DNA from: Actinomycetota bacterium | Lineage (GTDB): Bacteria; Actinomycetota; Humimicrobiia; Humimicrobiales; Humimicrobiaceae | Assembly: GCA_023379515.1 (NCBI GenBank) | Contig: JAMCQQ010000118.1 | Location: 1-16,066 of the forward strand | Length of the DNA: 16,066 nt | Direction: 5' to 3' | Shown here: positions 233-15,959 of the stretch, piece after piece | How the letters are laid out: each line of letters starts with the position of its first letter | Position numbering within the stretch: position 1 is the stretch's first letter | Notes under the pieces: model-generated | Told to the model about the DNA's origin: nothing | Database searches by the model: none | Seen by the model: only the letters and a program-made list of their open reading frames with translations | Program-made: the position numbers and the translations under genes

Positions 233-382
233 GTGAGAGTTAATATTACATTGGCTTGCAGTGACTGCAAGAGAAGAAATTATACAAGTGTTAAAAATAA
301 GAAAAACGATCCTGACAGAATAGAGATTAAAAAATATTGCAAGTGGTGTAAGAAGCATACGGTGCATAAGGAGACCAGATAG
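233..382 (+). CDS. rpmG: 50S ribosomal protein L33, zinc-binding type
   Basis: A 49-residue protein beginning [12 protein letters not shown] matches bacterial L33, a small 50S protein near the E site. Two CxxC pairs, C9/C12 and C36/C39, form the zinc-ribbon pattern of the zinc-containing (C+) L33 form, so this is not the zinc-free paralogue. I chose the GTG at 233 because GGAG sits at 224-227 with normal spacing and the product has the usual L33 length. The tuf-rpmG-tRNA-Trp-secE-nusG order is widespread in bacteria and supports the call. The TAG stop occupies 380-382, and its last two bases are also the first two bases of the tRNA-Trp gene, so the coding region and the mature tRNA overlap. 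Confidence 0.95.
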
Positions 383-456
383 GGCTGTAGCTCCAATGGT
401 AGAGCATCGGTCTCCAAAACCGAGTGTTGGGGGTTCGAGTCCCTCCAGCCCTGCCA
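381..456 (+). tRNA. trnW: tRNA-Trp (anticodon CCA, CCA end encoded)
   Basis: The 76-base sequence folds as a full cloverleaf. The acceptor stem AGGGCTG (381-387) pairs with CAGCCCT (446-452), followed by discriminator G453 and an encoded CCA at 454-456. The D stem is GCTC/GAGC, the anticodon stem TCGGT/ACCGA and the anticodon loop CTCCAAA, giving CCA and hence tryptophan. The T arm is GGGGG TTCGAGT CCCTC with one G-T pair. The A1-U72 pair and discriminator G are normal for bacterial tRNA-Trp. The gene starts inside the rpmG stop codon, so it must be cut from the mRNA of rpmG and secE by RNase P and 3' processing. The 3' part from C436 on is the start of a 202-bp tandem repeat. Confidence 0.97.
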
Positions 457-637
457 TATAAAAGTATTACTGTTATTTGAAAATTAAACTTAAATTAAGA
501 GGCTGTGAAATATGCCGGTGGCATATTTCAGGGACTCGAAAGGACGGACTGAAGCGAAGTGCAAGCGAACTGATAGTGAGCGTAAGCGAAGCGTAAGGAG
601 TCCGCGTCTCTGCAGCGAACGAAGTGAGACGAAAGAA
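436..637 (+). repeat. 202-bp tandem repeat, copy 1 (starts in tRNA-Trp T loop)
   Basis: This unit is followed immediately by a copy (638-839) that I read as identical base for base. Its first 21 bases are the 3' end of tRNA-Trp from the T loop to CCA. It then holds an AT-rich stretch, a perfect 11-bp hairpin at 506-516/520-530 (loop GGT), and a structured section rich in AGCG words. Nested stems are 545-550/599-604 (CGGACT/AGTCCG) and 605-610/626-631 (CGTCTC/GAGACG). They are enclosed by 530-538/638-646 (AGGGACTCG/CGAGTCCCT), which closes on the start of the next copy. No coding region or ribosome binding site is convincing inside it. Confidence 0.93.
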
Positions 638-839
638 CGAGTCCCTCCAGCCCTGCCATATAAAAGTATTACTGTTATTTGAAAATTAAACTTAAATTAA
701 GAGGCTGTGAAATATGCCGGTGGCATATTTCAGGGACTCGAAAGGACGGACTGAAGCGAAGTGCAAGCGAACTGATAGTGAGCGTAAGCGAAGCGTAAGG
801 AGTCCGCGTCTCTGCAGCGAACGAAGTGAGACGAAAGAA
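638..839 (+). repeat. 202-bp tandem repeat, copy 2
   Basis: It is an exact second copy of 436-637, offset by 202 bases. It begins with a detached duplicate of the tRNA-Trp 3' end (T-loop part through CCA at 656-658). The same hairpins recur 202 bases downstream of those in copy 1, for example the 11-bp hairpin at 708-718/722-732. Its enclosing stem 732-740 pairs with 840-848 in the partial third copy. Absence of differences suggests a recent duplication, active homogenisation or an assembly error. Confidence 0.92.
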
Positions 840-862
840 CGAGTCCCTCCAGCCCTGCCATA
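840..862 (+). repeat. Partial third copy of the repeat (tRNA-Trp 3'-end duplicate)
   Basis: These 23 bases equal the first 23 bases of each 202-bp unit: tRNA-Trp T-loop remainder, T-stem and acceptor 3' strands, discriminator, CCA and TA. Identity stops at 863, where AGTAAG replaces TAAAAG. The array therefore has the form tRNA 3' end, unit, 3' end, unit, 3' end. This is the shape expected when an insertion at a tRNA 3' end is bounded by attachment-site-like direct repeats. No integrase gene is present in the window. Confidence 0.9.
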
Positions 863-887
863 AGTAAGTAAAAAAGAATGGAAAGAA

Positions 888-2970: not shown

Positions 2971-2997
2971 ACTTATAGTTTTTTAATAAATAAAAAA

Positions 2998-3111
2998 CAA
3001 ACCATAGACGGCGGGTGTTGTAAAAATATAAAAATACAACTTAATTTCCTGCCCAGGTTGATATTAGGAAATTATTTTATCGGCCTGATAGATGGGTCGA
3101 TTTTGTTTTTT
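2998..3111 (+). ncRNA. Ribosomal protein L10 leader RNA with attenuator
   Basis: The 179-base gap between rplA and the annotated rplJ start matches the known L10 leader class. GGCGGG (3010-3015) pairs with CCTGCC (3048-3053), with an inner hairpin GTTGTA/TACAAC (3017-3022/3035-3040) and the conserved-looking TTAATTTCCTGCC segment. In Bacillus subtilis the L10(L12)4 complex binds such a leader and causes termination before rplJL. Here a terminator-like hairpin CGGCC/GGTCG at 3081-3099 is followed by a T-rich run at 3101-3111. A competing pairing TAATTTCCT/AGGAAATTA (3042-3050/3066-3074) shares CCT with the first stem, so two exclusive folds are possible. The match is from memory of the family, not from a covariance search. 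Confidence 0.82.
3081..3111 (+). terminator. Attenuator-like intrinsic terminator in the rplJ leader
   Basis: CGGCC at 3081-3085 pairs with GGTCG at 3095-3099 (one G-T pair), with an extra T-G pair possible inside, and is followed by ATTTTGTTTTTTA. It lies before rplJ and downstream of the L10-binding-like fold, so it is best read as a conditional terminator. CAGG at 3054-3057 can pair with CCTG at 3084-3087 in its 5' arm, a possible antiterminator contact. Confidence 0.68.
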
Positions 3112-3155
3112 ACAGCAGGATTAATATTTAAGAATTAAAAACGGGGGTTTTGAAA

Positions 3156-15602: not shown

Positions 15603-15959
15603 CAATGATTTTTTACATTTGATGTTTAGTAAAAAGTGTTTTTAAATATTTATAAAAAACATAATTGATAAAAGTATATGGAAGCATTTCAATTTCATAA
15701 TAGGAACAAAAGTAAGGCTGCAAGAATCAGGCTGGGTGTTTCGAAAACACGCAATCTTTGCCCCAGCTTAGGCAAAGCTTGCTCGGTTTCAGGCTTCGCT
15801 CTCCTCTTTAGAGAGGAACCGTGCCCGCTCAGCCTTCAAACGGTTTTCTCAACACCCAGCCTGATCCAATAATTTGTTTGCAATCACGAAAAAGAAATGC
15901 TAGCAAATTATATTTAAGTTAATAATTTTCACACTAAAAAAAGGAAAGGAAAAAAATAA
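15603..15959 (+). other. fusA-tuf intergenic region (357 bp)
   Basis: It contains an AT-rich stretch (15603-15725), the 140-bp inverted-repeat element (15726-15865) and a tail with the tuf ribosome binding site AAGGAAAGGA (15941-15950). A 64-codon open frame at 15678-15872 crosses the inverted repeat but has no ribosome binding site or protein-like composition, so I do not call a gene. I see no convincing promoter for tuf. Confidence 0.75.
15726..15865 (+). repeat. 140-bp inverted-repeat (fold-back) element upstream of tuf
   Basis: A perfect 15-base inverted repeat, ATCAGGCTGGGTGTT at 15726-15740 and its complement at 15851-15865, extends after two mismatches into GAAAAC/GTTTTC (15743-15748/15843-15848). 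Inside are hairpins CTTTGCC/GGCAAAG (15756-15762/15771-15777), TCCTCT/AGAGGA (15802-15807/15812-15817) and CGGTT/AACCG (15784-15788/15817-15821). The element is GC-rich in AT-rich flanks. It may be a MITE-like insertion, a structured tuf leader or a processing signal. No clear target-site duplication is visible. Confidence 0.75.

Follow-up and report, generated by a model that had tools for sequence, protein, structure and literature searches.

The array considered here lies near the start of the window, by which is meant the whole analysed stretch of 16,066 nucleotides from an Actinomycetota bacterium of the Humimicrobiaceae (GenBank assembly GCA_023379515.1, contig JAMCQQ010000118.1). There, on the forward strand, as are all features below unless stated otherwise, rpmG for ribosomal protein L33 (233-382) is followed by a tRNA-Trp(CCA) gene (381-456; found by ARAGORN, 64 bits with the Rfam tRNA model), by the tandem units themselves, and by secE (888-1202), with nusG as a further neighbour; the rpmG stop codon (380-382) shares 2 nt with the start of the tRNA gene. 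Self-comparison of the window places two units at 436-637 and 638-839, with 100% identity over 202 nt, and a third occurrence of the unit start in the 23 nt at 840-862, where it forms a terminal remnant. A sequence-only reading of this DNA had described a 202-bp unit present twice in identical form after tRNA-Trp and then a 23-bp remnant, set between rpmG and secE, and that description is exact to the base and right about both neighbours. A perfect tandem repeat of 202 bp far exceeds what chance would give; the number of units is that assembled in a draft genome (221 contigs, 79.5% complete, 5.1% contamination) and is therefore provisional. The same reading had called the unit seemingly non-coding and without an integrase, in agreement with the finding of no plausible ORF within it: besides a frame that ends at the tRNA, the only unit-overlapping ORF of at least 60 aa is an 82-aa TTG frame on the minus strand (675-923), which is taken as spurious. 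An Rfam search with the unit returned nothing beyond a chance-level match to Gut-1 (E 2.7). Elsewhere in the window, a ribosomal protein L10 leader (Rfam RF00557) occupies 2984-3116, and an inverted repeat of 23 nt (15726-15748 and 15843-15865; 91% complementary, 94 nt apart) lies downstream of an ORF named by eye as elongation-factor-G-like.

Because the host tRNA-Trp spans 381-456, the repeat starts are nt 56-76 of the tRNA plus TA. Copy 0 of the direct repeat (436-456), running from the T loop to CCA, is part of the tRNA gene, copy 1 lies at 638-658 and copy 2, the terminal remnant, at 840-862; the tRNA gene is intact and the units are placed 3' of its CCA, which bears out the attachment-site-like geometry, with the tRNA left whole, that had been proposed. 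Unit 1 continues with an A+T-rich spacer that is particular to the tRNA locus by spacer comparison (457-506), a palindrome predicted to fold as the hairpin GAAATATGCC-GGT-GGCATATTTC (507-529), a putative guide found by complement search as the reverse complement of tRNA nt 54-63 (531-540), and a core (539-637) whose three-way junction is the family structure transferred by hand to window coordinates. The predicted core pairings are P3 (542-545 with 600-603), a pair between the K base T607 and the M base A637, and P4 (608-610 with 626-628), and the first 8 nt of repeat copy 1 would close a helix with the antisense. The body of unit 2 (659-839) is the same by its 100% identity over 202 nt, with the palindrome at 709-731, the antisense at 733-742, and the core at 741-839. 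GGCTG at 501-505, in the unit 1 spacer, is complementary to CAGCC of the acceptor 3' strand and could pair with it; the idea that units generally carry a second antisense, directed at the acceptor strand, was considered and rejected, as the excess (mean 3.39 bp versus 3.02 bp in shuffles, 0 of 1000 as high) is small and confined to few loci.

The window's units are members of a dispersed family. Four more loci of the same genome have the core: three lie behind tRNA-Leu(gag), tRNA-Leu(cag), and tmRNA, respectively, and the fourth is at a contig start, where the repeat is shaped like a tRNA tail. A covariance model built from five units (R1) matched 24 of 61 genomes, the source genome included; with the better model R2, built from 45 units, 40 genomes of the class were scanned and 24 matched, all of them among the 35 of family f1 and none among the 5 that fall outside f1, and a scan of the phylum, run with stricter filters and at most 10 candidates scored per genome, gave 24 of 396 genomes, every one in f1. 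An exact-pattern scan of named genomes yielded at least 80 stretches, and the record titles among the matches listed were Actinobacteria, Actinomycetota, Actinomycetes, "bacterium", Ca. Humimicrobium oleiphilum, and Ca. Hydromicrobium americanum (all metagenome-assembled genomes), the last belonging to class Ca. Humimicrobiia. The suggestion that the array might represent a tRNA-anchored family expanding through its repeats is thus upheld by the recurrence of the core behind other tRNA genes and by the tandem units held by relatives, and the possibility that the unit is found nowhere else is answered by the same recurrence. For 78 of 83 matches (50 loci), a tRNA or tmRNA gene is found no more than 600 nt upstream in the same orientation; contig starts account for four of the remaining five, which lie at one or belong to an array that extends to one, and the fifth stands behind a tRNA-Pro with some of its bases read as N. 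In the literature searched, which took in few subscription papers, no description of this unit family was found.

When units are compared across hosts, one order is displayed: a spacer of about 40-50 nt, a predicted palindrome hairpin, an antisense to the T arm, a core with a predicted structure, and a copy of tRNA nt 56-76. The body, from CCA to repeat, measures 133-181 nt (median 145). The terminal repeat equals nt 56-76 of the unit's own tRNA exactly in 60 of 77 cases and the tails of other hosts in 1 of 2849, and the antisense is the exact reverse complement of nt 56-63 of its own tRNA in 58 of 78 cases, against 53 of 2433 control comparisons; these host-matching counts, taken on the 78 of 83 matches, are not de-duplicated and include a few overlapping loci. 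A de-duplicated set of 88 units was obtained by dropping 15 of 103 parsed units (N in the body, a body outside 120-185 nt, cross-gene Arg artefacts, and three antisenses missed by the search expression), and its hosts comprise 21 tRNA types plus tmRNA. The antisense is followed by AA in all 88 of these cleaned units, so that pairing would reach nt 54-63 where nt 54-55 are TT; its length is 8-10 nt, and it is exact in 68 of the 88. Two units, L051:2287-2412 and L005:805-927, appear to be decaying, with the antisense or the repeat out of fit with the tRNA.

Where nearly identical cores stand behind different tRNAs, the antisense and terminal repeat mostly match the local tRNA. In genome G003, the bodies of the units at tRNA-Arg(acg) and tRNA-Ser(gga) share 95% identity along their full length, and the antisenses, GGGATTCG and GGGGTTCG, as well as the terminal repeats, each fit their own tRNA; likewise, units behind tRNA-Arg(tct) and tRNA-Pro(tgg) have identical cores with antisense and repeat each fitting the local tRNA. 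Ten pairs of units within one genome have a core identity of 95% or more and differ in tRNA nt 56-63; both antisenses fit their own tRNA in 8 of the 10, in a set where two pairs share one partner locus and 2 of the 8 use the two tandem tmRNA units of genome G001. The two exceptions weigh against the reading given below: a Lys/tmRNA pair (G032) has one common antisense, fitting Lys alone, and in a Met/Ser pair (G029) the Ser antisense is one base off. At 90% core identity, both antisenses fit in 23 of 34 pairs, and one pair has a common antisense. Spacers have a median identity within the genus of 0.72 for the same tRNA versus 0.57 between tRNAs of one genome. As spacers follow the tRNA locus, much of the pattern would reflect vertical descent and conversion, not fresh jumping.

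The core probably folds, as RNA, into a three-way junction for which covariation argues. In alignment A4, a hand-picked spread of 45 units whose left end is out of register in one row, 96.3% of the 900 cells of the proposed nested structure are paired, as compared with 30-48% in control structures slid along the sequence, over which a structure drawn from the very sequences counted has an advantage. Double changes occur in 12 of 20 pairs (117 double-change cells versus a mean of 38.5 in shuffles), and the covariation score is 0.368 versus 0.158 shuffled; one of the five structure measures, the number of further pair types, was not higher than in shuffles (24 versus 22.7; 145 of 500). Ranked by mutual information, the top seven column pairs include six that belong to the structure; the other one (47-87) is located within the tip of the same arm. 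At the K-M pair, which joins a core base to the base before the repeat, G-C was counted 48 times, T-A 35 times, and other combinations 4 times (n=87). G-U cells are commoner than A-C cells (29 versus 9, p 0.0017; 28 versus 6, p 0.0002, when the outermost pair is left out), which suggests that the tRNA-sense strand is the one that folds, probably as RNA; single-stranded DNA of the same sense may instead be the folding molecule. For window 501-660, the predicted fold has -60.5 kcal/mol and a z of -4.5. The single-stranded motifs and loops of A4 are highly conserved. The loop motif CTCTGCAGCGA (A4 columns 106-117) is replaced in a few units by CTACGTAAGCGA or similar, and each of the two loops carries a self-complementary 4-mer (TGCA and ACGT, respectively).

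Occupancy varies among relatives, in which empty, single, tandem, and decayed sites are all found. Across 29 NusG loci, 22 have the tRNA-Trp gene, and 10 of these 22 carry one or two units (some decayed) and 12 none, so that a comparison of this spot, which had been called for in close strains, reveals zero, one, or two units in relatives. The tRNA-Trp of G022, for example, has one unit; that of G016 is unit-free with what appears, by eye, to be a spacer remnant; and that of G004, in the same genus, is empty, what follows CCA there resembling what follows the last repeat in G002. An empty site would look the same whether units had been lost precisely, by recombination between repeats, or had never been present. 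Genome G001 holds three tandem units behind tmRNA, tRNA-Gln, and tRNA-Leu(tag), the last tmRNA repeat being different by one base. On a weakly resolved NusG tree of the 29 genomes, unit presence seems clustered but patchy; a single gain in the family was rejected, as the tree needs 4 label changes (shuffled mean 6.4, 4 of 500 as low).

By layout, the closest known system is RtT (RF00391), an old and poorly understood oddity of E. coli tRNA operons. Four RtT units of 178 bp are present around tyrTV in E. coli K-12; each lies behind a tRNA and closes with a 19-nt duplicate of the tRNA tail, down to CCA. Tandem arrangement after a tRNA gene and a duplicated tRNA tail in every unit are common to both systems. 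The first of the units that follow tyrV carries, at 59 nt past CCA, a 10-nt antisense of the tRNA tail, GGGGAAGGAT, a length reached in 6 of 2000 mononucleotide shuffles, and the predicted RtT fold is multibranched and closed by this antisense helix, as is that of the Humimicrobiaceae units; the RtT side of this likeness is noted here and lies outside the published definition as seen. Copy number is variable in both, empty sites included. RtT matches covering at least 80% of the query occur in 4678 of 5426 genomes, 60 rows sampled across 5391 E. coli records show between 0 and 5 annotated RtT units under the match, and strain 98203, with both tRNA-Tyr genes present, lacks RtT units, its first tRNA-Tyr being followed by the post-unit flank of K-12, one base apart, as a clean empty site. 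E. coli strains vary in RtT number both in the interval that separates the tRNA-Tyr genes and downstream of the second gene. The systems differ in that the RtT antisense corresponds to about nt 59-68 and that of the Humimicrobiaceae units to nt 54-63, and in that the latter stand behind 21 tRNA types and tmRNA. RtT is apparently not limited to tRNA-Tyr either, since one report places RtT-family RNAs of Actinobacillus pleuropneumoniae upstream of tRNA-Asn and tRNA-Lys genes (PMC4986893). The likeness is one of layout, with no sequence relation detectable by the models used: the RF00391 covariance model gave no match at E<=5 in window 380-880 nor at E<=1 in the loci of 10 relatives, and with R2 the four RtT units scored 6.9-9.7 bits (E 0.085-0.47) and did not surpass a narJ stretch or the tRNAs.

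With the anatomy, the host matching, the predicted fold, the patchy occupancy, and the tandem copies established at the level of compared sequences, the array is read, with a probability of roughly 60%, as a non-coding, non-autonomous, tRNA-anchored repeat of RtT type, one that builds tandem arrays and passes from one tRNA gene to another. The unit would be transcribed together with the pre-tRNA, and its antisense would clasp the duplicated T arm and so close the three-way-junction RNA. Tandem growth and clean loss would proceed via recombination or slippage between the 21-23-bp repeats, and spread to other tRNA genes via copying or gene conversion of the body, with the antisense rematched to the new T arm after or alongside the transfer. 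The history of the family is accordingly read as vertical descent of the locus combined with copying or conversion of bodies between loci and rematching of the antisense. The pairing may serve in the choice of insertion site or only in shielding the duplicated tail or stabilizing the RNA. Counted against this reading are the 20 of 88 units with an inexact antisense, the observation of no insertion event among the relatives compared, and a decayed unit without its tmRNA. The last (L229:430-710, on contig C199 of G002) consists of a decayed core and a tmRNA-like repeat with no adjoining tmRNA; upstream of the core lies protein-coding sequence, including by eye a small toxin-type ORF, as if something had been inserted between the tmRNA and its unit.

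The host-tracking antisense, the conserved predicted fold, and the likeness to E. coli RtT had gone unreported in the sequence-only reading, and the multi-tRNA, host-matched form of an RtT-like layout is new here. The occurrence of the same layout in a distant phylum, behind 21 tRNA types and tmRNA with an antisense that follows the host, suggests a general kind of tRNA-anchored element. A bolder and doubtful extension would make RtT-like units a general class of minute retargetable mobile elements, in which the antisense, in the unit RNA or a displaced strand, pairs with nt 54-63 of the tRNA or its gene across 55/56 and directs insertion, and in which rematching permits harmless colonization of many tRNA genes. 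Short target-complementary stretches that go with each copy are also a property of the IS110 bridge RNA and of group II introns, and the present units are like these in carrying such a stretch and unlike them in that no associated protein was found. The family supplies a covariance model and a natural experiment of near-identical cores facing different targets, and E. coli strains that range from no RtT unit to at least five make unit gain and the role of the helix testable in a laboratory strain.

Of the other explanations, the one that survives best, tentative as it is, regards the unit as a trailer RNA useful to the host, either processed out of the pre-tRNA as a small structured RNA or acting as a tuner of tRNA maturation, which is kept by selection and whose copies are incidental; the antisense would then stop the duplicated tail from competing with the real tail for the 5' half of the tRNA. 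The strong conservation of the fold and of the single-stranded motifs, together with G-U pairs in the tRNA sense, speaks for such an RNA. RtT offers a precedent, as RefSeq annotates it (rttR) as an sRNA processed from the tyrT transcript and RtT sRNAs are reported to derive from tRNA operons and to modulate the stringent response (PMC4986893). Against a useful trailer stand a match directly 3' of just 36 of 150 typed tRNA genes of the genus (154 found; none had an opposite-strand match within 100 nt), the differing occupancy of one locus between relatives (10 of 22 tRNA-Trp sites), and the 11 of 35 family genomes that have no R2 match.

Less probable still is a folded single-stranded DNA cassette similar to those of integrons, in which the T loop would stand for attI, the antisense and the duplicated T arm for R'' and R', and exchange would take place at nt 55/56 through XerC/XerD or similar enzymes. 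Integron cassettes are arranged in tandem, and in attC the exchange point lies where the short helix closing the folded structure ends on its inner side; the units correspond to it piece by piece, with a folded site and complementary boxes beside a putative exchange point. They depart from it in having no gene, in the tRNA T loop that takes the place of attI, in wobble pairs that are tRNA-sense (attC sites fold on the bottom strand; the 29-to-9 count of G-U against A-C here favours the top strand, whichever strand an exchange would use), and in highly conserved loops. Gene cassettes between distant copies were considered and rejected, the kilobase-apart matches being separate tRNA genes, each with its own unit. 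As to the enzyme, tyrosine recombinases (PF00589) are encoded in 35 of 35 f1 genomes, equally in the unit-free ones. Movement in trans by an integrase, along the lines suggested earlier, is hypothetical. Six full-length recombinases from three unit-bearing genomes are all XerC/XerD-like: three XerD-like proteins pass TIGR02225, and three XerC-like proteins score best with TIGR02224, yet under its cut-off. All six pass NF040815, "site-specific tyrosine recombinase/integron integrase" (228-237 bits versus 220), but none of the six comes near the cut-offs of the integron-integrase models TIGR02249 (117-136 bits versus 265) and NF011946 (71-86 versus 435).

A decayed or minimal attP element of ordinary kind, mobilized in trans by a phage-type integrase that cuts in the T loop, is very unlikely. 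Elements of the T-loop class that target tRNAs have direct repeats that begin in the T loop and run through to the end of the tRNA, with an intact tRNA upstream, and the units share that repeat span and keep the tRNA whole; they differ in their size of about 155-202 bp, in having no integrase, and in an antisense matched to each host. To our knowledge, ordinary attP elements are fixed to one tRNA, in contrast to units at 21 tRNA types and tmRNA with mostly matched antisenses. The exact pattern had no match in the viral contigs scanned; the plasmids searched yielded nothing, and the phages searched one weak 28-bp match, to a single phage under two accessions. G002 and G024 are rich in units (11 and 8 R2 matches, respectively) yet have two PF00589 matches each. 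An assembly artefact or a plain tandem duplication of ordinary spacer, which the draft state of the assemblies and the several fetched contigs that stop at or within a unit might suggest, is contradicted for the family by an element that recurs at numerous tRNA genes across 24 genomes and shows covariation, and can be set aside.

None of the four enzyme families counted (PF00589, PF01797, PF02371, and PF00078) is consistently associated with units. The Y1 transposase PF01797 (10 of 24 genomes with units versus 4 of 11 without) and the IS110-type transposase PF02371 (11 of 24 versus 4 of 11) were rejected for want of association. Reverse transcriptase (PF00078) is skewed toward unit-bearing genomes (12 of 24, one of the 12 scoring under the family's cut-off, versus 0 of 11; hypergeometric p 0.003, ignoring kinship), a skew that kinship may explain, and it was rejected as the unit's enzyme, a unit lying beside just 1 of 12 fetched reverse transcriptase loci (11 genomes). 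Since the recombinases are Xer-like, the transposases unassociated, and the reverse transcriptase loci mostly introns, with group II intron RNA above the gathering score at 8 of the 12, no enzyme is named. The one unit near a reverse transcriptase locus is there because a group II intron sits inside it: on contig C126 of G009 (L210:3867-5992), an intron matching Rfam group-II-D1D4-3 and group-II-D1D4-1, with reverse transcriptase reading frames, lies within the antisense of a tRNA-Pro(cgg) unit, just past the palindrome hairpin.
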